NCBI GenBank assembly: GCA_025966315.1
Contig: JAOPUZ010000045.1
Coordinates: forward strand, 1-41,354
DNA length: 41,354 nt
Direction: 5' to 3'
Source: Frankiales bacterium
Lineage (GTDB): Bacteria > Actinomycetota > Actinomycetes > Mycobacteriales > Jatrophihabitantaceae
A program made the translations under genes and the position numbers. The notes under the pieces are model-generated. The model did not search any database. It was not told where the DNA came from and was given only the letters and a program-made list of their open reading frames with translations. How positions within the stretch are numbered: position 1 is the stretch's first letter; each line of letters begins with the position of its first letter. Shown one piece after another: positions 2,260 to 40,377 of this stretch.

Positions 2260-2268
2260 CTCAACCGG

Positions 2269-2317
2269 AAATCGTGCAACACCTGGCATCGCTGCGATGC
2301 CAGGTGTTGCACGATTT
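2269..2317. terminator. Bidirectional hairpin terminator between glf and the glycosyltransferase pair
   Basis: A perfect 23-bp inverted repeat (2269-2291 with 2295-2317) has a 3-base loop. It begins AAATCG and ends CGATTT, so each direction finishes with a short run of T. It lies 10 bases after the glf stop and 18 bases after the stop of the convergent minus-strand gene, so it can serve both transcripts. Confidence 0.9.
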
Positions 2318-2334
2318 GGCGAAAGGGCGGGCGG

Positions 2335-3360
2335 CTAGCGCTTGCGGGCCTTCTGCTTGCTCGATTTGCCGCGGCCGACCGGCGCGCCCTTGAAGACCGG
2401 CTTCAGAGCCGCGGCCCACAACGCCCGCGTCTGCTCGGCGAACGCATCCTGCTGGCCGGCAATCCATTCGCGGTACGGGGCGAACTCCTCGGTAACCAGG
2501 TCGAATCGATCGATCGTGTCCCGGGCCAGCCCGACGAAGGTGTCGACCACATCGCCGCGTGACTCGTCCAGCCGGAACCGATCCGGGATCGGCACGTCGA
2601 TCGGATGCGCGGCCGCGCCGCGGCGGCCGGTTATCACGCAGCACCCGCTGAGCGCCGCTTCCCGGGGAATGCGATCCCGGCCTGGATGCTCGCCGAAATC
2701 GACGTAGAGCTTGGCTTCACCGAGCAAGTCCGCGACCCCGCCGGCGGACAGGCCCTGGATGGGCTGCCATTCCAGCACTCCGGCCGAGGCTGCCATCAAT
2801 CGTTCGGTGAAGGCGAGCCCTTTTCGCGGGTTGAACAGGACCAGGTCCTTCTTGGGCTGCTTCTGCAAAAGCTGGGCTCGATCCACGAACGCGCTCGACA
2901 GGTAGTCGGTCAACATGGTGGAACGGACCGATCGACGCTGCAGAAAGCTGCGGGCGTAGTCGGACTGGGTGACATGGATGACGCGCGAATCGGGACGCAG
3001 CAGATCGCGCAGGATCTCCGGATCCTCGACCGGTGCCGTCGGATCCGGGGTCGGTACGCCGATGGTGCTGAAGTAGTTGTCGACCGACAGCCACCACATC
3101 GCGGTGCGCGCGCGACCCAGCACGCTCAGCACGTAGGGCGAGGTCTCCGGGACGACGACGAGCACGTCCGAGGCGTCCGGCACCGAGGCCGAAACCTCGA
3201 TGTCGTAGTGGGCATACGCCGGCACGACCTCGGTACGCCCACCCGGGTAGTAGCAGATGCTGGCCGGGATCTGTTGCCGGCGAGCTGAATCGACGAGCTG
3301 GTGCAATGCCTCGACTCCACCGGTCACCGGGCCGTCGGGACACATCACGATCATGCGCAT
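2335..3360 (-). CDS. Glycosyltransferase-like protein, possible flagellin or surface glycan enzyme
   Basis: This 341-residue protein is cytosolic, with no signal peptide. It opens with a Rossmann-like first strand (MRMIVMCPDGPVTGGVEALHQLVDSA), as in GT-B glycosyltransferases. Near residues 225-265 it has a region resembling the donor-side half of that fold (LYVDFGEHPGRDRIPREAAL, then GCCVITGRRGAA). The C-terminus is a short Lys/Arg tail. I do not recognise a precise family, and the acceptor and donor are unknown. It starts 12 bases after the stop of the glycosyltransferase gene at 3373-4398, with GAGAGG upstream of the ATG, so the two form an operon. Their shared sigma-28-type promoter and the adjacent flagellin gene make flagellin or flagellar glycan modification the leading guess. 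Confidence 0.65.
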   Translation of the reverse strand: MRMIVMCPDGPVTGGVEALHQLVDSARRQQIPASICYYPGGRTEVVPAYAHYDIEVSASVPDASDVLVVVPETSPYVLSVLGRARTAMWWLSVDNYFSTIGVPTPDPTAPVEDPEILRDLLRPDSRVIHVTQSDYARSFLQRRSVRSTMLTDYLSSAFVDRAQLLQKQPKKDLVLFNPRKGLAFTERLMAASAGVLEWQPIQGLSAGGVADLLGEAKLYVDFGEHPGRDRIPREAALSGCCVITGRRGAAAHPIDVPIPDRFRLDESRGDVVDTFVGLARDTIDRFDLVTEEFAPYREWIAGQQDAFAEQTRALWAAALKPVFKGAPVGRGKSSKQKARKR

Positions 3361-3372
3361 GAGGCCGGCCTC

Positions 3373-4398
3373 TCAGACGCCTACCGGCGCCGGCACCGGT
3401 TCGGACGGGATGCCGAGGACGTCGTAGAAGACGTCCTCCCACCGCCACGCGTTCGCCTGGATCGTGCGCGTCGCCGACCACGCTCGCGCGTTACGGCCGA
3501 TCTCTTCGCGCGCCGCCGGATCGTTGGTCAAGGTTCGAAGATGGCGTGCCCACTCGTGCGGGTACTTCACCTTCATGCCTGTCACGCCGTGGATGATGGC
3601 GCTCGAATACGGTCCGTAATCCGTCGCCACGACCGGGATACCGAGGGAAGCGAATTCCAGGAATTTCAGATCACTCTTGCTCCGGTTGAAGGCGTGAAAC
3701 GCCAGCGGGGCGATGCCGATGTCGAAATCGAGTCCGTGAATGTATTCGACCAGGTTGTCCTGCCAACCGGTGAACCGCGAATCCGGGCGCCCGATGGCCG
3801 CGCCGTGATTCACGCCGATGAAGTGAGTGTCGACGTCCGGATTGCGCTTGAAAAACTGACGCAGGTCTTTGCTGACGGCCAGAAAGTCGTGATGATGCGA
3901 TGAGCCGCCGGCCCAACCCACCGTCAGCCGACCGGCCCGGGGTCGCTGCCAGTCCAGAATCGCGGCGTCGAAGCAATTGGGAATGACGCTGACATTGGGG
4001 TTATAAGTCCGCACCTGTTCGGCCAGATGTTCATTGGTCACGGTGACCGCATCGGCGACGGCGATGTTGCGCTTGACCCGCTCACCGGTCTCGCCCATGA
4101 AGTGGCGATGCTCGGCGTTGGTCTGCTGCAGGTTCCAGACGTCATCGTCGATCTCGTAGATCATCCCGAACGAGCGGCTCTCCAGCGCGGCCAGCGCTTG
4201 CCACGCCTCACTGCGGGGCTCGTCGGCGACAAGCTGGCCCACCATGATGTCCAAGTCGGCGGGCAGGTCACCGTCGAGGACGGTGAACGCCAGCGCGTCG
4301 TTGCCCAGGTTGTTCAGGGCCCACATGGGCAAGCCGACCCGGTAATTGCCACAGCCGTGACGGTCATTGGCCCAGCCGAATATCTTGAGTGGTCGCAC
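3373..4398 (-). CDS. Glycosyltransferase (GT-B fold), first gene of a sigma-28-linked pair
   Basis: The protein has 341 residues from the preferred start. The N-terminus (RPLKIFGWANDRHGCGNYRVGLP) contains a glycine-rich nucleotide-sugar/acceptor loop. A mid region, IPNCFDAAILDWQRP then LTVGWAGGSSHHHDF, is typical of GT1/GT4 enzymes. A later segment, LKFLEFASLGIPVVATDYGPY, matches the donor-binding E-x7-E-type region of GT4. The longest open frame extends to ATG 4464, but GTG at 4396-4398 is preferred. It has AGGAG at 4406-4410 with a 7-base spacer, and the upstream part of the frame overlaps the promoter at 4454-4480. The gene is divergent from flagellin, and co-expression with it is inferred from the promoter. 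Function as a flagellin glycosyltransferase is inference. Confidence 0.8.
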   Translation of the reverse strand: MRPLKIFGWANDRHGCGNYRVGLPMWALNNLGNDALAFTVLDGDLPADLDIMVGQLVADEPRSEAWQALAALESRSFGMIYEIDDDVWNLQQTNAEHRHFMGETGERVKRNIAVADAVTVTNEHLAEQVRTYNPNVSVIPNCFDAAILDWQRPRAGRLTVGWAGGSSHHHDFLAVSKDLRQFFKRNPDVDTHFIGVNHGAAIGRPDSRFTGWQDNLVEYIHGLDFDIGIAPLAFHAFNRSKSDLKFLEFASLGIPVVATDYGPYSSAIIHGVTGMKVKYPHEWARHLRTLTNDPAAREEIGRNARAWSATRTIQANAWRWEDVFYDVLGIPSEPVPAPVGV

Positions 4399-4453
4399 GC
4401 GGACTCTCCTATCACTCGCTTTTGTGCTTGTTGGTCCCCGTTGTTCCATACCC

Positions 4454-4480
4454 GTATCGGCCAACCGCGACCTGTGCTTA
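4454..4480 (-). promoter_or_regulatory. Sigma-28-type promoter for the two glycosyltransferases
   Basis: On the minus strand the sequence reads TAAG-N15-GCCGATAC (-35 at 4480-4477, -10 at 4461-4454). The FliA/WhiG consensus is TAAA-N15-GCCGATAA, so 10 of 12 positions match with the exact spacer. Transcription would start near 4447, about 50 bases before the GTG start at 4398. This is the best consensus match in the window. Confidence 0.75.
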
Positions 4481-27714: not shown

Positions 27715-28479
27715 ATGAATCTTCAGTTCAGCGCTACGACGCTGGTGACGCTGCTCCTGGCGTCCATCCGCATCACGGCCTGGCTGACAATTGCCCCGCC
27801 GTTCGCCACCGCGGGAATCCCCCGCACCGTCCGCACCATGCTCGCCGTCGCCCTGGCCCTCACCGTCACCCCGATCGCCGCGGCCCACGCACCGCCGGCC
27901 GAACTAGGACCGATCCTCACCAGCGCGGTCGAACAGGTCGTGATCGGAGGCTCGCTCGGCTTCATCACCCGGATGCTGTTCAGCGCGATCGAGTCGGCCG
28001 GCGCCCTGATCGACCTGTTCGGTGGCTTCTCGCTGGCTTTCGCCTATGACCCGCTGTCGGCGACCAGCACGTCGATCTTCGGCAAGTTCTACGGGTTGCT
28101 CGCGACCGTGCTGATCTTCGCCACGGATGCGCACCTGATCATCGTGCAGGGCTTCCTGCGCACCTTCAGCTCCATGCCGCTCGACGGGTCCATCAACATG
28201 TCCCAGCTGGGATCGGCACTGGTGCACGGCCTGACCGCTATGTTCATCGCCACCCTGCAGATCGGCGCGCCGTTGATTGCGGTGCTGTTCCTGGCCGACC
28301 TCGCCTTGGGCCTGTTGAGCCGGATCTCGCCGCAGCTCAACGTGTTTTCGGTCAGCTTCCCGCTGAAGATCATGCTCACCCTCGGCCTCGTCGGGTTGAG
28401 TTTCACCCTGCTGCCCCAGGTGGTCATGGACATGGCCCGCTCGACCACCTCGATGGTCACCCAGATCGGCGGCGGCTGA
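27715..28479 (+). CDS. fliR: Flagellar type III export gate protein FliR
   Basis: This 254-residue protein has about six hydrophobic helices. The N-terminal block is VTLLLASIRITAWLTIAPPF. The mid block FGGFSLAFAYDPLSATSTS is the FliR loop region. The later FLADLALGLLSRISPQLNVF and FPLKIMLTLGLVGLSFTLLP are strongly conserved in the family. FliR seats in the export gate and contacts FlhB. Its stop overlaps the flhB start (TGATGG). Confidence 0.95.
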   Translation: MNLQFSATTLVTLLLASIRITAWLTIAPPFATAGIPRTVRTMLAVALALTVTPIAAAHAPPAELGPILTSAVEQVVIGGSLGFITRMLFSAIESAGALIDLFGGFSLAFAYDPLSATSTSIFGKFYGLLATVLIFATDAHLIIVQGFLRTFSSMPLDGSINMSQLGSALVHGLTAMFIATLQIGAPLIAVLFLADLALGLLSRISPQLNVFSVSFPLKIMLTLGLVGLSFTLLPQVVMDMARSTTSMVTQIGGG

Positions 28480-29567
28480 TGGCGGGCAAACCGGCGGGTG
28501 AACGCAGCGAAAAGGCCACCCCCCGGCGCCTGAAGAAGGCCCGCAAAGAGGGCCACATCGGCCACTCCCACGAACTCGGATCCTGGTTGTCCGTACTGGC
28601 GGCCACCTTCGTCATTCCGCTGGTCTCGCGGAAGATGATGGCCAACTCCGAAACAACGATGGGCCAGATCGCCGGCCTGATCCGGAACCCGGACATCTCG
28701 CTGGCGATGTCCATCAGCAAGACGGCGGTCTTGCAAGGTGCGCTGGCGGTGGTGCCGCTGGTGGCCCTGGTGATGGGAACGTCCGTGGCTGCCTCGGTGC
28801 TGCAAGGTGGCCTGCACGTAGCCCCGAAGCTGTTCATGCCGAAGTTCAGCCGGCTCAATCCGCTGTCCGGCATCAAGCGCATGTTCGGCCCGCAAGGCGC
28901 CTGGCAGCTGGCGAAGTCCCTCGGCAAGCTCGCGGTGCTGTCTCTGGTGACCTACCTGGCCATCCGGCAGATGGTGCCGGTCTTGATGGCCGCCGGTTCA
29001 CTCTCATTGGAGACCGTGCTGGACGAGGTGGTGGGCGCCGCCCTGAAGTTATTCCGCTGGGGCGCCTCGGCCGGCGTCCTGCTGTCACTGGCCGACGTGG
29101 TGGTTGTCCGCAAACGAAACAACAAACAATTGAAGATGACCAAGCAAGAAATCAAAGAGGAGCACCGGCAGAGCGAGGGCGACCCGCACATGAAGGGCGC
29201 GATGCGGTCCAAGGCGATCGCGATGAGCCGTAACCGGATGATGGCCGACGTGGCCGAGGCCGACGTGGTCCTGGTCAACCCGACGCACGTGGCCGTCGCC
29301 CTCAAGTACGACCCCAAGCGGGGGGCTCCCCGGGTGGTCGCCAAGGGCGCCGACAACATCGCGGCGAAGATCCGCGAGATCGCCGAGCAGAACCGGGTGC
29401 CGATGGTGGCCGACATACCGCTGGCCCGGACGCTGTATTCAACCTGCGAAATCGGGCAGGAGATTCCGGCCGACCTCTACCAGGGGGTGGCGACCGTGTT
29501 GGCCTTCGTCATGCGGCTCAAACGGCGTGGTTCGGCGGCCGGCATCCACCGGCTGGCGGCGGCGTAA
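28479..29567 (+). CDS. flhB: Flagellar export switch protein FlhB
   Basis: This 362-residue protein begins GERSEKATPRRLKKARKEGH, the FlhB N-terminus. It has four membrane helices to about residue 208 and a cytosolic domain with the self-cleavage site NPTH (267-270, in VLVNPTHVAVALKYD). FlhB switches substrate class together with FliK. In most loci flhA follows directly. Here about 8.7 kb of glycan and transport genes intervene. Confidence 0.96.
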   Translation: MAGKPAGERSEKATPRRLKKARKEGHIGHSHELGSWLSVLAATFVIPLVSRKMMANSETTMGQIAGLIRNPDISLAMSISKTAVLQGALAVVPLVALVMGTSVAASVLQGGLHVAPKLFMPKFSRLNPLSGIKRMFGPQGAWQLAKSLGKLAVLSLVTYLAIRQMVPVLMAAGSLSLETVLDEVVGAALKLFRWGASAGVLLSLADVVVVRKRNNKQLKMTKQEIKEEHRQSEGDPHMKGAMRSKAIAMSRNRMMADVAEADVVLVNPTHVAVALKYDPKRGAPRVVAKGADNIAAKIREIAEQNRVPMVADIPLARTLYSTCEIGQEIPADLYQGVATVLAFVMRLKRRGSAAGIHRLAAA

Positions 29568-29609
29568 CCCGAAGGTCCCACCGGCCCAGTTGGCCCAGCC
29601 GCGGATTCG

Positions 29610-31205
29610 TCAGCTGACGGTTATCGGGCTCGAGAACACCATGACCCGGTAGATGCCCACTCGGTAGCTCTCAGCGGGTGAGCCGAATGTCTGGGTAGCC
29701 GTTGCCGTCGTGACGTTGCCCCACGGGACGGCCTCATCGAAGACCAGGAAATTGAACGATTGTCCGCGATACCAATCGGCGCTGGCCTGACGTCGATAAA
29801 TGATCAGCTGGCCGTCCTGCTGGCTGGCGATCACCGGCCGGACCCGGATCTGATCCTTACTGGTCACGGTGGTGATCGAGGCGCTCCAATAGTCCCCCAA
29901 ACCTTGCGTCAGCCCGCGGCTTTGCAGCGACGCAATGAGGTCCTTCGAAGTGGCCGGCGGCGTGGCTCCACTGGCCGTGATGGCGAAGCCAGCAACCCAG
30001 CTCGCAAGCACCAGCGCCGCGACCACGCCTGCGATCCGGATCGTCCTGGCGTGGGCCGACCACCGGGGCAGGGACCGTCCGACCAACCGACCGGCCAGAA
30101 TCGCACCGAACACGACGACCGGGCTGAGGTAGCGGATGTAGGCCGGATCGGTGGACGTGGTGGTCAGCGCGAGGTAAAAGCACAGATCGCCCAGACAGGC
30201 CAGCAGCAGCAGATCGTCCAGGCGGGAACCGTCGTCGTCCAATCCGCGGACCATCCCCCGGATCGTTCGGGTCAGCGCCCAGCCGATCGCGACCAGGACG
30301 ACCAGCAGGCCGATGATTCGCAGGCTGGCCAGCACGACCGGGACGCCGGCGCGCCCGTTCTCGCCGTTGCCGACGCCGAAGATCTGCGCGCTCCAACTCG
30401 GCAGGTGCGCGATGTTCTGCAGTATCTGGTGCCCGCTCGCCCGCTCGTTGGCCCGCCCGATGCTGAAAGTCCCGATCGCCACCGCGACCTTGCGCACGGC
30501 GTAGGCCAACACGAGGCCACCGACCGCGGATGCGATGGCCGGCCCGCCTGCTCGCCATGATCGTCGGCGCAGCATCGCGATCACGCCGGCACCGACGGCC
30601 GGGGCGATCCCAAGCGGCACCGTCTGCAGATCACCGAGAATTCCCGCGGCGAAGATGACCGCGGCCAGTACGCACCCCCAGCGAGGACGCGCGCGTTGCA
30701 GGATCGCGAAGGCCAGCAGGCACCACAACATCGTGCCGACGTGCAACGGCCCGCGCAGGATGAACATCGCGAGCACCGGATTGGGCAGGGCCAGCAAAGC
30801 GATCGTGGTGCCCATGGCCAGCACGCCCGCCCTGCCGCGGCTCGACCCGCGGGCCAGACCGGCGCCGAGGACGATCACCAGCGCGGCGATCACGGCCGGC
30901 ACCAGGTACAGCAGCACACGGCTCACGCCGAGGACGGGCACGGCGGCGGTGTAGAACAACGCGTCCACCGTCCAGAACGAATCCATCGACAGCCACCAGC
31001 CATCGAGACCGAAGTTTCCGCCGCTCATCGACTGGCCCTCGAGGACAGCGGTGGCACCGTCGGAGTCCCCCGGGAATGCGTGCAAGCCGGCGGCGTACAA
31101 AATGGCGACCAGGGCGAGAAACCCGAGCACGGCGAGGGCGGCGACAGCGACGCGGACGGTGTGCGAGACCGGCGGTCGGCCCACACCGGTTTCGATCCTG
31201 TCCAC
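29610..31205 (-). CDS. Polytopic membrane protein, GT-C glycosyltransferase-like
   Basis: This 531-residue protein has around ten hydrophobic segments and a C-terminal external domain of about 120 residues. The first helix is followed by an acidic loop (AFPGDSDGATAVLEGQSMSG), a position and composition used by GT-C enzymes for their catalytic Asp. I do not recognise a named family. It may transfer a sugar from a polyprenyl-phosphate donor on the outer face. The start GTG 31203-31205 has AGGGTG upstream. It is divergent from the DUF2142-type gene and convergent with flhB. Confidence 0.65.
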   Translation of the reverse strand: MDRIETGVGRPPVSHTVRVAVAALAVLGFLALVAILYAAGLHAFPGDSDGATAVLEGQSMSGGNFGLDGWWLSMDSFWTVDALFYTAAVPVLGVSRVLLYLVPAVIAALVIVLGAGLARGSSRGRAGVLAMGTTIALLALPNPVLAMFILRGPLHVGTMLWCLLAFAILQRARPRWGCVLAAVIFAAGILGDLQTVPLGIAPAVGAGVIAMLRRRSWRAGGPAIASAVGGLVLAYAVRKVAVAIGTFSIGRANERASGHQILQNIAHLPSWSAQIFGVGNGENGRAGVPVVLASLRIIGLLVVLVAIGWALTRTIRGMVRGLDDDGSRLDDLLLLACLGDLCFYLALTTTSTDPAYIRYLSPVVVFGAILAGRLVGRSLPRWSAHARTIRIAGVVAALVLASWVAGFAITASGATPPATSKDLIASLQSRGLTQGLGDYWSASITTVTSKDQIRVRPVIASQQDGQLIIYRRQASADWYRGQSFNFLVFDEAVPWGNVTTATATQTFGSPAESYRVGIYRVMVFSSPITVS

Positions 31206-31346
31206 CGCGGCACCCTAACCGGTGCGGATGTAGCTTCGACAAGAGGCGCCCGTGCGATCACATCAGGCTGCGCGCTCGCGCACAGAGACTTCCAAGTTGG
31301 CCGCGTTAGGTTCCCGGTGACCGTTCGCGCTGATGCCGCGAACACC

Positions 31347-31404
31347 TTGGTAGCACTACGGGAAACTTGCTAGCACTACGGGACTTGGTAGCACCACGGG
31401 AAGG
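31347..31404 (+). repeat. Three tandem copies of an 18-20 base unit
   Basis: The motif TTGGTAGCACTACGGGA and variants occurs at 31347-31366, 31367-31384 and 31385-31404, between divergent membrane-protein genes. The unit contains TTG codons that could act as weak starts. Function is unknown; it may be a regulatory or slippage-prone region. Confidence 0.75.
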
Positions 31405-31442
31405 GGCCGTCATCCGCGTCCACGCCGGCAGGTCGCCCGGCC

Positions 31443-31514
31443 GCGCGCCTGGGCCACGCCGCGCGCCTGGGCCACACCGCGCGCCTGGGCCACACCGCGC
31501 GCCTGGGCCACGCC
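31443..31514 (+). repeat. Four tandem copies of an 18-base unit
   Basis: GCGCGCCTGGGCCACGCC and its G/A variant repeat four times (31443-31460, 31461-31478, 31479-31496, 31497-31514). Read in frame with the downstream gene they encode Arg-Ala-Pro-Gly-Pro-His units. They end 12 bases before the preferred ATG 31526, so they lie either in the leader or in an extended basic N-terminus. Confidence 0.85.
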
Positions 31515-31525
31515 GCGCGCTAGCA

Positions 31526-33007
31526 ATGAGCCTCGTGGGCTTCGTCCTGTTCTTCGGACTCATCGCTCTCTGGAGCGTGGCGACGCCACCGTTCGCCGCG
31601 CCGGACGAACCGGTCCAGGCGGTCAAGGCAGCGGCAACCGCCCACGGCGAATTCCTCGGGCGTGGCACCGCGGACCCGGCAAAGATCCTGTTCCAGGTAC
31701 CCGGCACACTGGCCCGCGCGCCGAATCCAGGCTGTTTCGCCTTCAGACCGACGGTGGCGGCCTCGTGCCTGGCTCACTGGACGGCGGACGACAGCACGAG
31801 TCCGGCGACCAGCTACGTAGGACGGTATCCCCCGCTTTACTACCTGATCGTGGGCCTGCCGTCGGTAATAACCTCGAGCACCTCGGTCCTGCTACTGATG
31901 CGGCTGGTCAGCGCTGCGTTGTCGGCGGTGTTCCTGGCCGCGGCCTTCGTCTCGGCGTCCCAGTTCTGTCGGCGCCGATGGGTGCTGCTCGGAACTGCCT
32001 TCGCGCTGACACCGATGGAATTGTTCCTGGCCGGGGTGATAAACCCGAGCGGCCTGGAAATAAGCAGTGCGTTGTGTTTGTGGACGTCCGGGCTCGGACT
32101 GGTCCTGCGGGACAAGTCGCAACCGGCGACGCGGCTGGTGGTGTGGTCGACGTTATCCGCCGCCATCCTCGTCCAGCTGCGTGGCTTGTCGCCGTTGTTG
32201 CTGGCGGTCATTGGTGTTTCGCTCGCGCTGGTCGCCGGTCGCGACCGGCTGCGGGTCATCGCTCACCGAGCCGGCGCGCGCGTCGGTCTGGTGGCAGTGG
32301 CGGCCTGCTCGGTGTTCTCGGTGAGCTGGGTGCTGTTCCGGCACGGACTGCGAGTGCAGGCCTCCGGACGGCCGGTGTCCAGCGACGCCGGCTCGCTCGC
32401 CGTCCTCAAAGCGGCGGCGCACGTCGGCCTGGCCTACACCCAGTTGATCGGCAACTTCGGTTGGCTCGACACCCCGATGCCGCGCTGGTGCTATGCGCTC
32501 TGGGCTTTGGCGTTGGTCGCTCTGGGCGTGGCCGCGTTGGCCGGCCGATCGATTCGGCTGAGCCTGCTGCTGGCCGCGCTGGTCGTGGCGACCGTCGCGA
32601 TCCCGACGCTGTTGGCGTACTCGCAGGCCCACCGCGTCGGCATCGTCGGTCAGGGTCGTTACATCCTGCCGGTCGCGGTCGGCCTACCCGTGTTGGCCGG
32701 TTACGCGGCGAGCCGTCGCCTCGAACGCAGCCGGTGGTCGGTGCCCGGCATGATCGTGGGCGGCGTCGTGGTGGCCGCCATCCAGGTCACCGGCTACGTC
32801 GTCGCGTTGGCGCGGTACCGCAACGGCACCGGGCACGCCATCTGGACGCTGGACGCGGAGTGGGAACCGCCACTGCCGTGGCTGGTTGGCCTCGGCCTGT
32901 TCGTGACCCTGCAGCTACTGTTGTTCGCCTGGTGGCTGACGCTGTCTGCCGGCGAAGCGAATGCCGTACACACAGTGAACGTCCGAGAGATGGGCCGACG
33001 TGGCTGA
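31526..33007 (+). CDS. DUF2142-like polytopic membrane protein, probable glycosyltransferase
   Basis: The protein has 493 residues from ATG 31526, or 546 from TTG 31367. The first helix (LVGFVLFFGLIALWSVATPP) is followed by FAAPDEPVQAVKAAATAHGE, the P-DEP motif of DUF2142 proteins. A periplasmic loop reads GRYPPLYYLIVGLPS. About ten more helices follow. DUF2142 members belong to the GT-C-like set and are thought to add or polymerise sugars outside the membrane; activity here is inferred. Neither start has a good ribosome-binding site. The region from 31206 to 31525 holds no other gene, only two tandem repeats. The 3' end overlaps the GT2 start. Confidence 0.75.
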   Translation: MSLVGFVLFFGLIALWSVATPPFAAPDEPVQAVKAAATAHGEFLGRGTADPAKILFQVPGTLARAPNPGCFAFRPTVAASCLAHWTADDSTSPATSYVGRYPPLYYLIVGLPSVITSSTSVLLLMRLVSAALSAVFLAAAFVSASQFCRRRWVLLGTAFALTPMELFLAGVINPSGLEISSALCLWTSGLGLVLRDKSQPATRLVVWSTLSAAILVQLRGLSPLLLAVIGVSLALVAGRDRLRVIAHRAGARVGLVAVAACSVFSVSWVLFRHGLRVQASGRPVSSDAGSLAVLKAAAHVGLAYTQLIGNFGWLDTPMPRWCYALWALALVALGVAALAGRSIRLSLLLAALVVATVAIPTLLAYSQAHRVGIVGQGRYILPVAVGLPVLAGYAASRRLERSRWSVPGMIVGGVVVAAIQVTGYVVALARYRNGTGHAIWTLDAEWEPPLPWLVGLGLFVTLQLLLFAWWLTLSAGEANAVHTVNVREMGRRG

Positions 33008-33836
33008 ATTTCCAGAGCCGAGAACCACCGCGCAACGTTCACTGTCCGAAACCGCCGACACACCAGCGATCGTGGATGCCGCCATTGCCAAGTTTCGCCT
33101 GCAGCAACAAGGCCAAACGGCCGCCCCGCTGACGGTCGTCATTGCCGCACTCGACGAGGCGCCCAGTATTGCCGCGGTGCTGGACGAGATACCCGATCGC
33201 ATTGCGGGCCTGGCCGTGGACGTGCTGGTGATCGACGACGGCAGCACGGACGCCACCGCCGAGGTCGCCCGCTCGCACGGCGCGTTGGTGTGCCGGTTGA
33301 GCAGCAACTGCGGGCACGGCGCCGCGCTTCGGGCCGGTTACCGGATCGTGCGCGAGAACCAGGGGCAGTACATCGCGACCTTGGATGCCGACGGGCAGTG
33401 GGATCCGGCTGATCTGCCGGCCATGGTGTCGAAGCTGGCCGCGAACGAAGCCGACTTCGTCATCGGCTCCCGGCAACTCGGGCGGACGGAGAACACCGAC
33501 GCCTTGCGAAACCTCGGAGTTCGCGTCTTCGCGAGGTTGATCAGCCTGCTCACCGGCACCAAGATCACTGACAGCTCCAGCGGTTTGCGCGCGATGCGAG
33601 CCGAACTGACCGGGACCGTGCGGCAGACCCAGCCGCAATATCAAACCTCAGAGCTCCTGATCGGCGCGATCTTCGCGGGTTACCGAATTGCCGAAGTGCC
33701 GACGGTGATGCGGACACGCAGCGCCGGAACGAGCAAAAAGGGCCGCAATCTCGGGTACGGGCTTCGCTACACCCGGGTGATCCTGCGTACCTGGCGGCGC
33801 GAACGGCGACATCGGGTCGCACCGCGATCGGGCTGA
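33000..33836 (+). CDS. GT2 polyprenyl-phosphate glycosyltransferase (DPM1-like)
   Basis: The protein has 278 residues. The GT-A core starts PLTVVIAALDEAPSIAAVLD (about 43-62). VLVIDDGSTDATAEVARSHG, GHGAALRAGYRIV and IATLDADGQWDPADLPAMV follow, with the metal-binding DAD. GSRQLGRTENTDALRNLGVR and SSSGLRAMRAEL are typical of dolichol/undecaprenyl-phosphate sugar synthases. There is no C-terminal membrane pair, so it is the soluble form. It likely loads a hexose on polyprenyl phosphate for GtrA and the GT-C-like proteins next to it. The start is GTG 33000, overlapping the preceding gene by 8 bases. Confidence 0.87.
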   Translation: MAEFPEPRTTAQRSLSETADTPAIVDAAIAKFRLQQQGQTAAPLTVVIAALDEAPSIAAVLDEIPDRIAGLAVDVLVIDDGSTDATAEVARSHGALVCRLSSNCGHGAALRAGYRIVRENQGQYIATLDADGQWDPADLPAMVSKLAANEADFVIGSRQLGRTENTDALRNLGVRVFARLISLLTGTKITDSSSGLRAMRAELTGTVRQTQPQYQTSELLIGAIFAGYRIAEVPTVMRTRSAGTSKKGRNLGYGLRYTRVILRTWRRERRHRVAPRSG

Positions 33837-33863
33837 ATTCGACCATGCAGGATCGGGCCGAAC

Positions 33864-33887
33864 CCGGCGTCGGCGACCGAACGCCGG
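33864..33887. terminator. Hairpin between convergent GT2 and gtrA genes
   Basis: CCGGCGT (33864-33870) pairs with ACGCCGG (33881-33887) around a 10-base loop. It lies in the 85-base gap between the two convergent stops and could terminate both. Confidence 0.45.
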
Positions 33888-33921
33888 CGTCCGCGATCGG
33901 GCCGATGTCCAGCGTCCTCGA

Positions 33922-34422
33922 TCAGCCGGCGACCGGCCCCGTCGCGCGCGGTCGAAAGAGGCGATCGAAGATGATGAACTTGACCACGAACAAGACGCCG
34001 TAGACCGCACAATAGGTTGCCGCATTGATCACCGTGCGGGTACTGCGACTCTGGTCGGCGAACGCCGCGTTGACCACGCCGATGGCCAACGCGGCGATGG
34101 CCGTACTCAGCAAGGCGGTCAGCCAGTACGGCGCGACCTCGCGCCAGAAATCGGACCGGTCTCGTCTCGACCAGGTCCAGCTGCGGTTGAGCAGGTAGCC
34201 CGGCACGATGCCGGCCACCGATCCCGCCACGGACGCGCCGCGGGCGCCGAGCAAGCCGGTACGGAAGGCGATGACCAGCACGATTTCGGCGACCAGGAAA
34301 CAGAAAACCGAGCCGAGGGTGTAGCGGGTGAGCCGTCGCCACGGGAGCCTGGCGGCCATGCCCGGCGCTGAACGCTCAGGCTCGGCTGCTAACTCGGCCG
34401 GTACCGACAACTCAGACGACAC
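33922..34422 (-). CDS. GtrA-family membrane protein, probable polyprenyl-sugar flippase
   Basis: This protein of about 166 residues has four hydrophobic helices: TLGSVFCFLVAEIVLVIAFR, GASVAGSVAGIVPGYLLNRS, LLSTAIAALAIGVVNAAF and a last one ending GVLFVVKFIIFDRLF. The pattern GYLLNRSWTW and the final VKFIIFDRLF are GtrA hallmarks. GtrA proteins move polyprenyl-phosphate sugars across the membrane. The start is unclear. GTG 34420-34422, just after the upstream stop, is used here, and ATG 34357-34359 gives the usual length of 145. The longest frame (to 34530) overlaps the upstream gene and is not preferred. Confidence 0.82.
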   Translation of the reverse strand: MSSELSVPAELAAEPERSAPGMAARLPWRRLTRYTLGSVFCFLVAEIVLVIAFRTGLLGARGASVAGSVAGIVPGYLLNRSWTWSRRDRSDFWREVAPYWLTALLSTAIAALAIGVVNAAFADQSRSTRTVINAATYCAVYGVLFVVKFIIFDRLFRPRATGPVAG

Positions 34423-34429
34423 CGGCGGC

Positions 34430-35611
34430 TCAGACGCCCGTCGTCGCCGCGCTGCGCCACAGCGAGCGGCACGGAATCTTGCTGGTATCGCAGCGGTCGG
34501 CGTACTTATGAGCGATTTCGTGCACCTCATCGAGCAGGTTGCCGGCGAGGGTGGTCGGTACCAGGCCGAGCTCGCGAAGGTGGCGATTCACGACCATCAG
34601 TTCGTTCTCCGGGGCCTCGGCCCGCGGATTGTCGACGTAGTCGATCTCGGCGCCGGTCTGCCCGGCGACCAACTCCGCCAGTTCGGCGACTCGGTGGGTT
34701 TCGGTCATCTGGTTGAAGATCCGAACCCGTTCACCGCGCGGCGGCGGATTCTCGACTGCGAGCCGGATACATCGCACCGTGTCGCGGATGTGGATGAAGG
34801 CCCGGGTTTGCCCGCCGGTGCCATGCACCGTCAACGGATACCCGATGGCCGCCTGCATGATGAACCGATTGAGGACCGTGCCGTAGTCGCCGTCGTAGTC
34901 GAAGCGATTGATTAGCCGCTCGTCGAGTTCGGTCTCAACCGTCTGGGTTCCCCACACGATGCCCTGATGCAGGTCCGTCACTCGGATGGCGTCGTTCTTG
35001 TTGTAGAAGGCGAAGAACAGCTGATCCTGCGCCTTGGTCATATGGTAAACGCTGCCCGGATTCGTGGGGTGCAGGATTTCCTGGTCGATCATCGACCCGT
35101 CGGCGGCCTCGATCTTGATCGGCAGGTAGCCCTCCGGGATGGCGGTACCCGAGGTGCCATATCCGTAAACGCCCATCGTGCCCAGATGCACTACGTGAAT
35201 GTCCTGGCCGGATTCGCTGATCGCGGCCAGCAGGTTGTGGGTGGCATTGAGATTGTTGTCGACGGTGTAGCGCTTGTGCACCGAAGATTTCATCGAGTAC
35301 GGCGCTGCGCGCTGCTCGGCGAAGTGAATGACCGCGTCAGGCTGGTAATCGGTCAGTAATTCCAGCAGGCCGTCGTAGTCCTGGGCCGCGTCGATTCGAC
35401 GGAAATGCAGCTCGCGACCGGTGCTTTCTCGCCAAGCCGAACATCGTTCGTCGATCGTGCGAATTGGCGTGAGCGAATGTGCGTCGAGTTCGTCGTCGAT
35501 ACGACGGCGGGACAGGTTATCCGCAATCATCACGTCATGCCCATTAGCGGACAGATGTAACGAAGTCGGCCAACCACAAAATCCGTCGCCTCCGAGTACC
35601 AACACGCGCAT
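34430..35611 (-). CDS. sqdB: UDP-sulfoquinovose synthase (SQD1/SqdB family)
   Basis: This 393-residue NAD-dependent SDR-type enzyme turns UDP-glucose and sulfite into UDP-sulfoquinovose in the best-studied members. The start MRVLVLGGDGFCGWPTSLHL matches SQD1. Further matches are IHFAEQRAAPYSM, LGTMGVYG with Thr145, the catalytic YHMTK (Tyr189, Lys193), INRFDYDGDYGTVLNRF, AAIGYPLTVHGTGGQTRAFI and IRDTVRCIRLAVENP. The family TMGEYG has Val in place of Glu, the main visible difference, so specificity could differ. AGGATCC upstream of ATG 35609-35611 serves as ribosome-binding site. A weak promoter TTGTCA-N18-TACACA (35717 to 35688) precedes it. gtrA follows in the same direction. Confidence 0.85.
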   Translation of the reverse strand: MRVLVLGGDGFCGWPTSLHLSANGHDVMIADNLSRRRIDDELDAHSLTPIRTIDERCSAWRESTGRELHFRRIDAAQDYDGLLELLTDYQPDAVIHFAEQRAAPYSMKSSVHKRYTVDNNLNATHNLLAAISESGQDIHVVHLGTMGVYGYGTSGTAIPEGYLPIKIEAADGSMIDQEILHPTNPGSVYHMTKAQDQLFFAFYNKNDAIRVTDLHQGIVWGTQTVETELDERLINRFDYDGDYGTVLNRFIMQAAIGYPLTVHGTGGQTRAFIHIRDTVRCIRLAVENPPPRGERVRIFNQMTETHRVAELAELVAGQTGAEIDYVDNPRAEAPENELMVVNRHLRELGLVPTTLAGNLLDEVHEIAHKYADRCDTSKIPCRSLWRSAATTGV

Positions 35612-35763
35612 ATTTGGATCCTAACTTCAGCCGATTCTTGGTAACAAATTTGTATCGCCGAAGCCTGTTCCTTACCTGCACGTTTGCTGTGTACCAGTTA
35701 ATCGATTCAGCTGACAAAAGCTAACGACGGCTGGACAACGGCCGCCGACTTCCACCGGCCCGA

Positions 35764-36309
35764 TCAGACCGCGGGCGAGCCGGGACCACGATCGTCCCAG
35801 CCGAGTCGACCCTCGCGCCGGACGTCCCGCCCCCGTACCGGCTCGCCACATTCGCGACACACCGACGTCAAGCGCAGCTCGTGATCATGGTGGAAGCGCG
35901 CCACCGGCGGGTCGGACACCGCCCACTCGTCGCCCCAGGCGAGCAGCGCGTCGAGCACCGGCGCAAGTGCGCGGCCGGCGGCCGTCAAGTGATAATCCGA
36001 TCGGGGCGGGGCATCGGAATAAGGACGACGCTCCAGTACCCCTGCGTGCACGAGCACCTTCAAACGCGCCGCCATCCGATCCCGGGGCGCGCCGGTGTTG
36101 CGCACGATCTCTGAGAATCGGTGATTGCCGAGCACGACTTCACGCACGGCCAGCAGCGCCCATTTCTCGCCGATGATCTCCATCGCCGCGGCAATCGAGC
36201 AGGGCCGTCCCGGCAGCGTGGCCGGATCGATGCGGGCATCGGCCGCCGATTCGGCGGCGCCGGTCAGAGCGCTCGGTGACGTGACGGTGCGGGAGCGAGC
36301 CGAAGGCAT
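35764..36309 (-). CDS. HxlR-family transcriptional regulator
   Basis: The protein has 181 residues. The winged-helix domain covers about 35-125: CSIAAAMEIIGEKWALLAVR with Cys37 at the HxlR position, FSEIVRNTGAPRDRMAARLK and SDYHLTAAGRALAPVLDALL. A C-terminal extension has a CxxC pair (Cys151, Cys154) that may bind metal. It is divergent from the MFS gene and very likely controls it from the 45-base intergenic region, where a GTTTG-N5-CAAAC palindrome is found. No link to motility is visible. Confidence 0.9.
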   Translation of the reverse strand: MPSARSRTVTSPSALTGAAESAADARIDPATLPGRPCSIAAAMEIIGEKWALLAVREVVLGNHRFSEIVRNTGAPRDRMAARLKVLVHAGVLERRPYSDAPPRSDYHLTAAGRALAPVLDALLAWGDEWAVSDPPVARFHHDHELRLTSVCRECGEPVRGRDVRREGRLGWDDRGPGSPAV

Positions 36310-36317
36310 GAATCAAG

Positions 36318-36332
36318 GTTTGCACATCAAAC
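36318..36332. promoter_or_regulatory. Candidate HxlR operator
   Basis: GTTTG-CACAT-CAAAC is a perfect 5-bp inverted repeat with a 5-base spacer, located between the divergent HxlR and MFS genes. A further ATCAAAC half-site lies just inside the MFS gene near 36370. Binding by the adjacent regulator is inferred. Confidence 0.5.
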
Positions 36333-36354
36333 CAGCGAACGCTACCGTCGGCAC

Positions 36355-37893
36355 ATGTCAGTTCGACAATCAAACTCAAGGTACGTCCGCAATCGCCGGC
36401 TCGGCGTGCTGGTGCTGGTCGCCGCGGTTTTCATGACGAATCTGGATCTGTGGATCGTCAACGTGGCCTTGCCGGACATCGGGGCCAGCTTCGGCGGAGG
36501 CGGCAGTGGCGGTGGTGAGGCCGGACTGGCTCAGCTGTCGTGGGTCTTGAACGGCTACGCCGTGGCGCTGGCCGCCGCCCTCATCGTGGCCGGACGGTTG
36601 GGCGACCGGATCGGGCACCGGCCGGTGTTCCTGGTTGGTGTCGTGCTGTTCACTGCCGCGTCGGCGGCCTGCGCGGTGGCACCGAATCTCGGCCTGCTGG
36701 TCGCGGCCCGAGTTGTCCAGGCGCTCGGTGCGGCCGCCCAACTGCCGACCTCGCTGGCGCTGTTGCTGGCCACCATGCCCGTCGAGCGCCGAGCCGGTGC
36801 GGCCCGCGGCTGGGCGGCGGTCGGCGGGGTGGCCGCCGTGGCGGGGCCGGTGCTCGGTGGCTTGCTGGTCGAAGCGTCCTGGCGCTGGATCTTCGTCGTG
36901 AACCTGCCCATCGGCCTGATCTCGCTCATGCTCGGCCGGCGCCTACTGCCGCGCCGATCCGCCATTGACCAGGCGGCCGCCCGCCGGCAGCCCATGCCGG
37001 ACCTCGTCGGTGCGATCACCGTGACCGTCGCGGTCGCGGCACTTACCGGCAGCTTGGTGCAGGCACCGCAGTGGGGCTGGACGTCCGCGAGCACCCTCGG
37101 GTTGATGCTGGTCGCGGTCGTTACCGGCGCTGGGTTCCTCGTCCGCTGCGCCCGCCATCACAACCCGCTGTTCGAGCTGGGTCTGTTGCGAATCGCACGG
37201 TTCCGGCAGGCCAACCTGGCCACCTTCTCGTTCAGCATCGCGTTCGCGATCATGTTGCTGTCCAACGTGCTCTGGTGTCAGGACGTGTGGGGTTACAGCG
37301 CACTGCGGACCGGGCTGGCGATGTCCCCCGGCCCAGCCCTCGTCCCGCTGGTCACCATCGTCACCGGCCGGGCCATGAAGCGCTTCGGACCGGGACCGCT
37401 GGCGGTGCTGGGGGCGTTGCTGTTCGCTGCCTCACTGCTGTGGCGAGTACTCGCCATCGACGTGGCACCGAACTACCTGCACGACCTGTTGCCGAGCATG
37501 CTGCTGGGCGGCCTCGGCGTGGGGCTGACCTTGGGCACCCTGATCGCGGCGGGTGTGACGTCGTTGCCGGCCGACCGTTCGGCCACCGGTTCCGCGGTGC
37601 TCAACGCCGGGCGCCAGATCGCATCCGCCGTCGGCGTCGCGCTGCTGGTGACCTCGATCGGCGTACGGATCGGGCCCGCCAGCGTGGCCGATTTCCGACG
37701 GAGCTGGGGGCTGGGCGTCGCGCTGGCCCTCGTCACCGCCGGGTTGGCGTTGCGGATGGCTTTCAGTGCGAAGCGGGATTCCACGCAGGAAACTACGGCC
37801 CTACAGTTCGCGCTGGTCGATGAGGATGACGGCACCCATGCCGCTCAACGCATCAGCGAACTGTCCGTAGTGGTGGCCACACCAGACAAGTGA
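36355..37893 (+). CDS. MFS drug exporter, DHA2 (EmrB/QacA) family
   Basis: This 512-residue transporter has about 14 hydrophobic helices. The first reads LGVLVLVAAVFMTNLDLWIV followed by NVALPDIGASF (motif D1 of 14-TM exporters, with Asp in the helix). Then come LSWVLNGYAVALAAALIVAG, RLGDRIGHRPVFLVG (motif A) and GPVLGGLLV (motif C). It exports hydrophobic or cationic compounds by proton antiport; the substrate is unknown. No ribosome-binding site precedes the ATG, so it may be leaderless. Its last 93 bases overlap the 3' end of the opposite-strand DUF7455 gene. Confidence 0.92.
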   Translation: MSVRQSNSRYVRNRRLGVLVLVAAVFMTNLDLWIVNVALPDIGASFGGGGSGGGEAGLAQLSWVLNGYAVALAAALIVAGRLGDRIGHRPVFLVGVVLFTAASAACAVAPNLGLLVAARVVQALGAAAQLPTSLALLLATMPVERRAGAARGWAAVGGVAAVAGPVLGGLLVEASWRWIFVVNLPIGLISLMLGRRLLPRRSAIDQAAARRQPMPDLVGAITVTVAVAALTGSLVQAPQWGWTSASTLGLMLVAVVTGAGFLVRCARHHNPLFELGLLRIARFRQANLATFSFSIAFAIMLLSNVLWCQDVWGYSALRTGLAMSPGPALVPLVTIVTGRAMKRFGPGPLAVLGALLFAASLLWRVLAIDVAPNYLHDLLPSMLLGGLGVGLTLGTLIAAGVTSLPADRSATGSAVLNAGRQIASAVGVALLVTSIGVRIGPASVADFRRSWGLGVALALVTAGLALRMAFSAKRDSTQETTALQFALVDEDDGTHAAQRISELSVVVATPDK

Positions 37894-38010
37894 ACTTCCA
37901 CCATGCATCGCCGTCTCGACGACCGCACGGGCAGAGCAGCGGTCGCAGCGGTCCGAGGCGTCGAGCAGGCGGACATCGAGCTCGAGCGTTGGGTCAGTGA
38001 ACGCGACCAT
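37801..38010 (-). CDS. Small zinc-binding protein, DUF7455-like
   Basis: The protein has 69 residues. The pattern is LDASDRCDRCSARAVVETAM then SSLVWCGHHYGQF, with Cys22, Cys25, Cys44, His46 and His47 as likely metal ligands. Such mini-proteins are widespread in actinobacteria and have no assigned function. The longer frame to 38172 is not used. ATG 38008-38010 has the very strong GAGGAGGAA ribosome-binding site just upstream and matches the family length. It overlaps the MFS gene tail to tail. Confidence 0.82.
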   Translation of the reverse strand: MVAFTDPTLELDVRLLDASDRCDRCSARAVVETAMHGGSSLVWCGHHYGQFADALSGMGAVILIDQREL

Positions 38011-38176
38011 CAGGTTCCTCCTCGTACGGTGCGGGCTGTTATCCCTACGATCGGCCGCCCCCGGCGCGGGCTGAGGATTTTGGCTGTGCCGACCCGCGAC
38101 GAGGATCGACATGCCCCGCGGCCGGGCGCTCCCAGCCAGCGCCCCCGGAAGATCGAGATGCCCGGCGATCACCCCC

Positions 38177-38203
38177 TCAAGTCAGTACATCGCTGGCCGA
38201 ATA
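38177..38203 (+). promoter_or_regulatory. Sigma-28-type promoter for flhA-flhF
   Basis: The sequence reads TCAA-N15-GCCGAATA, identical in its -35 to the flgB site and with the same spacer. It is located where flhA has lost contact with flhB. The predicted start is near 38210, giving a leader of about 110 bases. Confidence 0.55.
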
Positions 38204-38205
38204 GA

Positions 38206-38309
38206 TAGCTGCCAGGACGGCACGGCTGTACCCCAGGGACTGGGGCCGATTCCAATGGATGCGCACCATCCACGGGATCAGCCAGCTACTTAGGAAGCCC
38301 ACCGTCCTG
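38206..38309 (+). promoter_or_regulatory. Structured 5' leader of flhA
   Basis: An outer stem pairs CAGGACGG (38213-38220) with CCGTCCTG (38302-38309), directly before the ribosome-binding AGGGGAG. It encloses two hairpins: CCCCA-GGGAC-TGGGG (38231-38245) and TGGATG-CGCAC-CATCCA (38256-38272). TAGCTG (38206-38211) could instead pair with CAGCTA (38283-38288), which would form a pseudoknot or alternative fold. The layout resembles a multi-helix junction with a switch. I recognise no known riboswitch. The region from 38011 to 38319 otherwise holds only the promoter. Confidence 0.4.
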
Positions 38310-38319
38310 AAGGGGAGAA

Positions 38320-40377
38320 GTGAAACCCAAACGGCTCAGCCAGTTCGCGGTACCGATCGGTGTCGTCGGCATCATCCTGATGATGGTCGTACCCGTTCCG
38401 GCCGCCATCCTGGACTTCCTGATCGCCGTCAACATCACCGCGTCCGTGCTCATCGTGCTCACCAGCATGTACGTCAAGCGGCCCCTCGACTTCTCCAGCT
38501 TCCCGTCGCTGCTGCTGGTCTGCACCCTGTTCCGGCTCGCCCTGAACATCTCCGCGACCCGCAACGTCCTCGCCCACGGCTACGCCGGCAAGGTCATCAG
38601 CGCGTTCGGTCATATCGTCATCTCCGGGTCGCTGATCATCGGCCTGGTCATCTTCGCGATCCTGCTGGTCATCCAGTTCGTCGTCATCACCAACGGTGCC
38701 GGACGGGTGGCCGAGGTCGGCGCGCGCTTCACCCTCGACGCGATGCCCGGCAAGCAGATGGCGATCGACGCTGACCTGAACGCCGGCCTGATCGATGAGA
38801 AGACGGCCCGGCAACGTCGTCACGAGGTCACCGCCGAAGCCGACTTCTACGGCTCGATGGACGGTGCGTCCAAGTTCGTCAAGGGCGACGCCATCGCGGC
38901 CATCATGATCACGATGATCAACCTGCTGGGCGGCATCGGCATCGGCATGTTCCAAGGGCACCTGTCGATCACCGAGGCGGTCAGCAAGTACAGCCTGCTC
39001 TCGGTCGGCGACGGACTGGTCTCCCAGATCCCGGCCCTGCTGCTCTCGGTTGCGACCGGCCTGATCGTCACCCGGTCCAGCGATGCCGACGACATGGGCA
39101 CCATGGTGTCCAATCAGCTCGGATCGCAGAAGCGCCCCCTGCAGATCGCCGGCGGTGCCGCCATCGCCCTGTGCCTCGTGCCGGGCCTGCCCAAACTGCC
39201 CTTCCTGGTCGTCGGTGGCGCCCTGCTGCTGGTCGCGTCGCGAGTCAAGCCGCCGGCCAAGACCGCTGAAGAGATCGCGGTCGAGGCCGCCACCGCCGGC
39301 GCCACCCGGCCGGCCCTCGACAGCGCCGAAGCCATCATGGAAGACCTGTCCGTCGACCCGCTCGAACTGGCGCTGTCCGCCGACATGATCTCGCTCGTCG
39401 ACGGTGCCGGAGCGGACCTGCTCGACCGCGTCCGGTCCCTGCGCCGCAAGCTGGCCATGGAGCTGGGCGTGGTCATGCCACCCGTCCGAACCCGCGACAA
39501 CCTGGACCTGCCCGCGTCGACCTATGCGATCTGCGTCAACGGGGTCGAGGTCGCCCGCGGGCAGGCGCCCAGCGGGACCGTGCTGGCCATCGGCGACGGC
39601 TTGGACAATCTGCCTGGTGTCGAAGGTCAGGAACCGGTTTTCGGACTCACCGGCAAGTGGATCGGCCTGGAACTCCGCGGCCAAGCCGAACTGCTGGGCG
39701 CGACCGTCGTCGACCGCTCGTCGGTCATCATCACCCACTTGTCCGAGGTGGTCCGGTCGCACGCCAGCCGCCTGCTCGGCCGCGAGGAAGTCTCAGCTCT
39801 GACCAAAGCTCTCAAGCGCAGCCACCCGGTGGTCGTCGAGGACCTCACGCCGGCACTGCTCACCCTCGGCGAAGTGCAACGGGTGCTGCACGCCCTGCTC
39901 GACGAAGGAGTCTCGGTACGCGACCTGGTGCGCATCTTCGAGGCGCTGTCGGTCGCGGCGAAGTCCAGCACGGATCCGGACAAGCTGATCGAGGCGGCCC
40001 GCATGGCCCTGGCACCGGCCATCACGGCCGACCATCTCGGCGCCGACGGCCGCCTGCACGTGCTGACCTTGGATCCGCGACTCCAACAAGCCCTGCTCGA
40101 GTCGGCACGCTCGACCGAGATCGGCATGCAGTTGCTGCCCGGCCCCGACCTGGTCGAGGCACTCGTCACCGACATCGCCCGCCAGCACCAGTCCGCATCC
40201 GAACGGGGTTCTCGGCCGGTACTGGTCTGCGCGCCGCTGATCCGGATGCCGCTGCGCCGGCTGCTGTCCTCGACCGTCCCGGATCTGCCGATCATGTCCT
40301 ACTCCGAAATCTCAAGTAATGCTCCGATCGTCGACACCGTGGGGGTGATCCGTGATGGACGCACCGTTGGTGTCTGA
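38320..40377 (+). CDS. flhA: Flagellar type III export gate protein FlhA
   Basis: The protein has 685 residues. Eight membrane helices cover about 1-320, opening with FAVPIGVVGIILMMVVPVPA and LIAVNITASVLIVLTSMYVK. The FHIPEP-region signature is seen as LDFSSFPSLLLVCTLFRLAL and NISATRNVLAHG. The charged loop ARFTLDAMPGKQMAIDADLN carries the conserved Asp cluster. The cytosolic nonamer-forming domain runs from about 345 to the end. Start is GTG 38320 behind AAGGGGAG. The flhF frame begins 23 bases before its stop. Confidence 0.96.
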   Translation: MKPKRLSQFAVPIGVVGIILMMVVPVPAAILDFLIAVNITASVLIVLTSMYVKRPLDFSSFPSLLLVCTLFRLALNISATRNVLAHGYAGKVISAFGHIVISGSLIIGLVIFAILLVIQFVVITNGAGRVAEVGARFTLDAMPGKQMAIDADLNAGLIDEKTARQRRHEVTAEADFYGSMDGASKFVKGDAIAAIMITMINLLGGIGIGMFQGHLSITEAVSKYSLLSVGDGLVSQIPALLLSVATGLIVTRSSDADDMGTMVSNQLGSQKRPLQIAGGAAIALCLVPGLPKLPFLVVGGALLLVASRVKPPAKTAEEIAVEAATAGATRPALDSAEAIMEDLSVDPLELALSADMISLVDGAGADLLDRVRSLRRKLAMELGVVMPPVRTRDNLDLPASTYAICVNGVEVARGQAPSGTVLAIGDGLDNLPGVEGQEPVFGLTGKWIGLELRGQAELLGATVVDRSSVIITHLSEVVRSHASRLLGREEVSALTKALKRSHPVVVEDLTPALLTLGEVQRVLHALLDEGVSVRDLVRIFEALSVAAKSSTDPDKLIEAARMALAPAITADHLGADGRLHVLTLDPRLQQALLESARSTEIGMQLLPGPDLVEALVTDIARQHQSASERGSRPVLVCAPLIRMPLRRLLSSTVPDLPIMSYSEISSNAPIVDTVGVIRDGRTVGV

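Follow-up and report, generated by a model that had tools for sequence, protein, structure and literature searches.

What is a homologue of UDP-sulfoquinovose synthase doing inside a flagellar locus, and where would its sugar be delivered? The question is raised by a five-gene island in the draft genome (4.56 Mb, 77 contigs, 95.8% complete) of a Frankiales bacterium (GCA_025966315.1); the window analysed here is an entire contig of that genome (JAOPUZ010000045.1, 41,354 bases) and carries a large flagellar locus, whose genes were named by position and BLAST, with fliC, fliK, flhB and flhA recognized by Pfam. From gene content and comparative genomics, we consider it likely that the island is an accessory cassette of the GtrA/GtrB/GT-C type for extracytoplasmic sulfoquinovosylation, lodged in a variable flagellar junction, and not a flagellar system. 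A first-pass annotation of the window had argued that these genes suffice on paper to make, flip and transfer a lipid-linked sugar, and the comparison supports this part of its reading: the synthase, a family 2 glycosyltransferase (GT2) of the polyprenyl-phosphate type, a GtrA-type protein and a polytopic partner form a conserved set, without the sulfolipid transferase SqdX beside the synthase, in most of the 37 genomes that carry the GT2.

All five genes that the annotation had placed between flhB and flhA are present at 29610-35611, on mixed strands. The gap that holds them is bounded on the left by flhB (28479-29567, plus strand; PF01312, 1.2e-114) and on the right by flhA (38320-40377, plus strand; TIGR01398, above its cut-off). 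The synthase homologue (34430-35611, minus strand) is of the SqdB type, with the motif GTMGVYG, and resembles Arabidopsis SQD1 (1qrr) over its full length (phmmer 1.5e-98, residues 2-387 of 393). Next to it lies a GtrA-type membrane protein (33922-34359, minus strand; PF04138, 9.2e-09, 36.0 bits for a cut-off of 26.1), presumed to be a flippase or a membrane partner of the GT2, whose start at 34359 matches its relatives. The GT2 itself (33000-33836, plus strand; PF00535, 7.9e-26) is of the polyprenyl-phosphate sugar synthase type (DPMS/ArnC/GtrB-like); the GTG start at 33000 is favoured by an N-terminal RSL...DTP stretch common to relatives, and makes its reading frame overlap by 8 bases (stop against start) that of a DUF2142 polytopic protein, a presumed GT-C-type transferase (31526-33007, plus strand; PF09913, 4.9e-58). 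The fifth gene encodes GTC1 (29610-31205, minus strand), a polytopic protein with a C-terminal soluble part and a possible second transferase, which has no Pfam or NCBIfam match. The original proposal of two polytopic GT-C-like proteins is supported by half: one is a DUF2142 protein, a family that we take to belong to the Pfam GT-C clan, and the other has no family match, its GT-C assignment resting on hydrophobic segments and a DSD motif.

The GT2 is strictly linked with the synthase. We searched 298 genomes of the order for both proteins, each at E≤1e-60, and a class-wide sample of 316 genomes, with the GT2 at E≤1e-55. The order sample contained the synthase in 33/298 genomes and the GT2 in 27/298, all 27 within the 33; the class sample contained them in 15/316 and 11/316, again with all 11 within the 15. 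Only the window's own genome was positive in both samples, so that 37 distinct genomes carry the GT2, from 13/76 genera in the order and 9/121 in the class. In 37/37 the two genes share a contig and are separated by 470-2175 bp (median 849). A Fisher test of their association in the order sample gave 6e-33, a value to be read in the light of the non-independence of genomes from the same clade. One synthase genome without the GT2 at threshold (G378) has a weaker GT2, 42% identical and three genes off.

The other two components accompany the GT2 in most genomes. GtrA, searched with a profile in six frames, was found near the GT2 in 26/27 genomes of the order (not in G033) and in 0/6 synthase genomes lacking the GT2; in the class sample it was found in 7/10 further GT2 genomes (not in G307, G331 and G348) and in 0/4 without the GT2, which brings the total to 33/37. 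A polytopic partner is encoded near the GT2 in 26/27 genomes of the order, PMT-like in 24 and DUF2142 in 2 (the window's own genome and G015), with neither in G033. To judge by protein lengths, the GT2 is fused to this partner in 16/27 (one case was checked with Pfam and gave PMT_2 below cut-off). Concerning the GT2 itself, the nearest solved structures are ArnC (1.1e-12) and dolichol-phosphate mannose synthase (4.1e-12), the DADG motif (DxD) is invariant in 8/8 aligned rows, and all 17 NCBIfam matches fall below their cut-offs.

Some cassettes have additional or variant members. Rubrobacter-type genomes (L083, 7360-8412; L084 and L093) carry a synthase of 73-74% identity and, after it, a GT2 protein that shares 39-40% of its residues with the GT2 of the cassette; the L083 protein, the only one scanned, is a DUF2304-GT2 protein, and the arrangement is possibly a sister system. 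Several cassettes include a class I methyltransferase (scanned in L254, 690-1451; by eye in L014, L255, L258 and L259) and several a second short-chain dehydrogenase/reductase (SDR) enzyme (scanned in L017, 13642-14631, with look-alikes elsewhere), and these extra enzymes may modify the sulfosugar. Neither of them was found in the window's island.

The set also excludes the usual sulfolipid transferase. We built a profile from 11 SqdX-type GT4 proteins whose genes adjoin that of a synthase; among the 33 synthase genomes of the order, 26 gave some match to it at E≤1e-40. SqdX-type proteins adjoin the synthase in 4/33 (G217, G043, G280 and G206; 449-565 bits, the G043 protein being itself a row of the profile), all of them without the GT2. 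The remaining matches reach at most 309 bits and lie elsewhere in the genome; since these ~300-bit proteins sit away from the synthase and also occur as second copies in 3 of the 4 genomes just named, they look like another class of GT4. In the fetched neighbourhoods of the class sample, SqdX-type genes adjoin the synthase in 2/4 genomes without the GT2 and in 0/10 with it. Overall, an SqdX-type gene stands beside the synthase in 0/37 GT2 genomes versus 6/10 synthase genomes without the GT2. The earlier remark that no synthase of sulfoquinovosyldiacylglycerol (SQDG) was visible can be extended to the whole draft genome, window included, in which no SqdX-type protein was detected at E≤1e-40; the window does encode a weakly GT4-like protein at 3373-4464. 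Ordinary SQDG production by SqdX was therefore rejected, no SqdX-type GT4 having been found at that threshold in the 95.8% complete draft.

Four synthase genomes have neither the GT2 nor an adjoining SqdX: G378, G253, G288 and G551. In the last three (L167, 4114-9001; L168, 6373-11178; L262) the synthase occurs in a third setting, followed by two genes of ~600-650 amino acids, which in G253 encode a membrane-synthase-like GT2 (PF13641, 4.6e-25) and a protein with a weak, sub-cut-off BcsB match. Such genes might produce a sulfonated polysaccharide in the manner of a cellulose synthase.

That the GT2 acts on sulfoquinovose is, in our view, best supported by a displacement of the synthase. In a tree of 51 synthases, an SqdB-type clade separates from an SQD1-type clade that includes Arabidopsis SQD1 with 100/100 support, the Arabidopsis branch being long enough to elicit a program warning; the motif GTMGEYG marks the SQD1 type and GTMGVYG the SqdB type. 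Two Prauserella genomes and a Saccharomonospora record carry an SqdB-type synthase in the position that the SQD1 type holds in other Pseudonocardiaceae; their cassette neighbours are the same as in other genomes of the family, and their GT2 nests among the GT2s of other Pseudonocardiaceae (95/95 with G174, G285 and G226). As far as these phylogenies tell, a synthase of one type was apparently replaced by one of the other, with the transferase left in place. Such a replacement beside a constant GT2 is most easily understood if the two types yield one donor, which the GT2 takes up.

The neighbourhoods of the SqdB-type clade, to which the window synthase belongs and whose members are ~70% identical across phyla, point in the same direction. 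A pattern search for relatives matched at least 594 stretches, of which at least 579 encode relatives; the best 80 loci were kept, and the 70 in which the synthase was called as a gene served for neighbour counts. An SqdX-type GT4 directly adjoins the SqdB-type synthase in 16/70 loci and a PAPS-reductase-like (3'-phosphoadenosine-5'-phosphosulfate reductase-like) gene in 4/70 (one checked: PF01507, 6.4e-43). Both kinds of neighbour, the latter as a source of sulfite, give indirect support for the sulfoquinovose reaction in this clade. On a Sinorhizobium meliloti replicon, a protein 64% identical to the window synthase, with the same valine in its motif, is followed by a GT8 gene. The sqdB gene of Rhodobacter sphaeroides is presumably of the same SqdB type as the window synthase. 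Its deletion abolishes SQDG, according to the part of PMC11346425 that concerns it. At the level of single residues, the Agl3 synthase of Sulfolobus acidocaldarius depends on H95, R101, M145, Y182 and K186, described as essential in the enzymological part of PMC4388408, and all are kept in the window synthase as H96, R101, M146, Y189 and K193. Saccharopolyspora and Mycobacterium synthases appear in the legend of the tree in that same paper, which gives them no role. Cyanobacterial genomes (L046, L048, L067, L071, L092 and L094) also carry an SqdB-type synthase, with 67-72% identity.

These data suggest a pathway. The SqdB-type enzyme would make UDP-sulfoquinovose from UDP-glucose and sulfite, as its family and the gene displacement indicate, and the GT2, judging from its family and its strict linkage, would load the sugar onto polyprenyl phosphate at the cytoplasmic face of the membrane. 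GtrA would then take the lipid-linked sugar across, and a GT-C-type protein (DUF2142, perhaps GTC1) might transfer it to an extracytoplasmic acceptor, possibly a wall or surface polysaccharide, or else an exported protein, as the likeliest candidates. The sugar added would be sulfoquinovose itself or another sulfohexose made from it. Three-component extracytoplasmic glycosylation by GtrA/GtrB/Gtr(type) proteins is known from O-antigen glucosylation, and likewise from ArnC/ArnT and the mycobacterial polyprenyl-phosphate systems. As in these systems, the GtrA gene, the GT2 and the polytopic partner of the window lie in one cluster, and the likeness extends to the nature of the parts: a GT2-type polyprenyl-phosphate sugar synthase, a small GtrA and a variable polytopic partner. 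The cassette differs in bringing its own enzyme for a sulfosugar nucleotide and in the frequent fusion of the GT2 with its partner. It would share with the Agl3 N-glycan pathway of S. acidocaldarius, as far as PMC4388408 describes it, the delivery of UDP-sulfoquinovose to an extracytoplasmic glycan and not to a lipid; that archaeal pathway, however, uses a lipid-linked oligosaccharide and AglB, whereas the cassette is predicted to employ a bacterial single-sugar carrier lipid, and no oligosaccharyltransferase was recognized among its genes. With the SqdB/SqdX and SqdBDC routes to SQDG, as outlined in PMC11346425, it has in common a homologous UDP-sulfoquinovose synthase, but it has a GT2, GtrA and polytopic partners in place of an SqdX-type GT4 or a GT8.

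Several observations weigh against this pathway. The clade-mates among the genomes are not independent points, and GtrA was not found near the GT2 in 4/37 genomes, the search in the order sample being the six-frame one. The window GT2 groups with its counterpart in G015, but the two synthases fall apart in their tree, which may point to another exchange or to a tree of limited resolution. The window synthase also falls short of the cut-off of NF041015, the NCBIfam equivalog for UDP-sulfoquinovose synthase (E 1.5e-103, 346.7 bits for a cut-off of 575), and the Agl3 residue E147 is replaced by V148; we judge the cut-off not to be decisive because 5/5 other members of the family miss it too (343-466 bits), three of them beside SqdX-type genes. 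As to the final transfer step, single-sequence AlphaFold models of DUF2142 and GTC1 (mean predicted local distance difference test scores, pLDDT, of 44.9 and 43.5) were too poor for a fold search, profile searches of the PDB with DUF2142, PMT-like and GTC1 alignments gave no credible match (best E 0.49), and the DUF2142 and GTC1 profiles did not match the PMT-like partner.

The distribution of the two polytopic proteins is uneven. DUF2142 homologues (E≤1e-12) occur in 24/298 genomes of the order, only 2 of which have the synthase: besides the window's own genome, G015 has a 59% identical homologue beside its cassette, and the other 22 positive genomes, without the synthase, have homologues of at most 41%. 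We thus rejected DUF2142 as a general part of the cassette. GTC1 had no homologue at E≤1e-6 in the 297 other genomes of the order. In G443, from another family of the class, a 40% identical homologue over the whole length stands beside SQD1, GtrA and GT2 genes, which suggests that GTC1 belongs to the cassette and did not stray in by chance. The divergent GTC1 and DUF2142 genes are separated by a space with two arrays of 18-bp tandem repeats (31346-31402 and 31440-31520, with 3.0 and 4.5 copies), the second ending just ahead of the DUF2142 start.

Two other readings of the cassette were considered. It might make ordinary sulfolipid, with the GT2 replacing SqdX as an SQDG synthase unrelated to it. 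The neighbours of the SqdB-type synthases lend this idea some plausibility, as SqdX-type GT4 proteins in 16/70 loci and the GT8 of Sinorhizobium show that different transferases may serve SQDG, and the GT2 occupies their place in the same neighbourhood. But its closest solved relatives are polyprenyl-phosphate sugar synthases, and neither GtrA, in 33/37 genomes, nor the fused or neighbouring polytopic partner, in 26/27, is easily given a function if the sugar is passed to diacylglycerol in the cytoplasm; we hold this explanation to be unlikely.

Alternatively, the synthase homologue might make another nucleotide sugar, such as a 5,6-ene or another 6-substituted sugar, which the cassette would export. 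Agl3 itself makes UDP-glucose-5,6-ene when sulfite is omitted, and its E147A mutant is strongly impaired, according to the assays described in PMC4388408. The missed NF041015 cut-off and the valine at the E147 position, which is typical of the clade, fit with this possibility; among 113 synthase sequences (a few strains being counted twice) the position is V in 93, E in 19 and unreadable in 1. Nevertheless, members of this same clade adjoin SqdX-type and PAPS-reductase-like genes, the S. meliloti protein that precedes the GT8 gene has the valine too, and the SqdB type occupies the operon position otherwise held by the glutamate-bearing SQD1 type. We therefore give the export of a different sugar little credence and retain sulfoquinovose as the probable product of the cassette.

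The position in the flagellar locus, which had led the first-pass annotation to envisage a sulfonated decoration of the filament, sheath or wall, seems to have come about by a chance insertion. All genomes of the genus (9/9) have flhA, and the synthase was found in none of the 8 others (0/8), among them three genomes with a completeness of only 63-85%. The flhB-flhA gap, 8752 bp with seven genes in the window, measures 425-577 bp in 6/8 of them (including G005, which has a doubtful open reading frame of 64 amino acids there), and in G004 and G008 it holds unrelated cargo (L028, 7318-12590; L032, 6004-7203). Among the 33 synthase genomes of the order, FlhA occurs in only two, the window's own and G015. 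In G015, flhB is separated from flhA by 244 bp, and the synthase, GtrA, GT2 and DUF2142 genes lie on another contig in the same relative orientation, where the other called genes are not flagellar and the left edge is cut 525 bp from the synthase. With the same-genus gaps near-empty or filled by other cargo and the G015 cassette located elsewhere, the flhB-flhA junction is best seen as a variable site and the island as one of its cargoes. The first-pass annotation had named a conserved island position unrelated to flagella in related non-motile species as an outcome that would refute its reading, and the comparison indeed showed the conserved cassette in relatives without flagella. That it decorates the flagellar filament or basal structure is thus very improbable in spite of its place between flhB and flhA, given also the mixed strands of the island and the better candidates for flagellin glycosylation beside fliC.

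These candidates lie between a sigma factor gene and fliC, at 1081-4464, and comprise a UDP-galactopyranose mutase gene (PF03275, 2e-60), a gene for a protein without Pfam match (2335-3360, minus strand) and that of the weakly GT4-like protein mentioned above (3373-4464, minus strand). In bacteria, flagellin generally receives its glycans in the cytoplasm, a further point against the flagellar reading of the island. The flhB-flhA gap contains two further genes that the five-gene list had omitted, both probably unrelated cargo: an HxlR-type regulator (35764-36309, minus strand; PF01638, 7.8e-22) and a DHA2-like MFS transporter (36355-37893, plus strand; PF07690, 3.2e-40; TIGR00711, 228.3 bits, just below its cut-off of 230.2). 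We found no tRNA in the window and no repeat pair resembling an insertion boundary within 29500-38400. The G+C content per 1 kb ranges over 61-71% in the gap and 64-70% in its flanks, falling to 61% across the synthase gene and the region upstream of it, and this contrast is too small to prove a recent transfer. A scan of 29400-38400 gave 0 promoter sites for 0.8 expected and 7 terminators for 4.4 expected.

Few organosulfur compounds are as abundant as sulfoquinovose. In its passages on the subject, a 2026 review (PMC12890257) names sulfolipid and some archaeal N-glycans as its uses, and among the matches listed in our search of the open-licence literature, to which subscription journals did not belong, there was no description of a bacterial sulfoquinovose glycan or of a link with GtrA/GT2. 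Extending the argument from this one locus to its relatives, and with somewhat less assurance, we think it fairly probable that polyprenyl-phosphate-sulfoquinovose is formed in at least nine actinomycete families and serves to attach the sulfonated sugar to a polymer of the wall or surface. A GT2 dedicated to this task, in many cases joined in one protein with a polytopic transferase, would stand in place of SqdX, and the Frankiales cassette would have moved into the flagellar locus. Bacteria would thereby be seen for the first time to use sulfoquinovose for something other than sulfolipid. If true, a bacterial pathway based on lipid-carrier-linked sulfoquinovose would represent a new source of sulfonated surface glycan, and it would explain why actinomycetes without a recognizable SqdX have kept a UDP-sulfoquinovose synthase.

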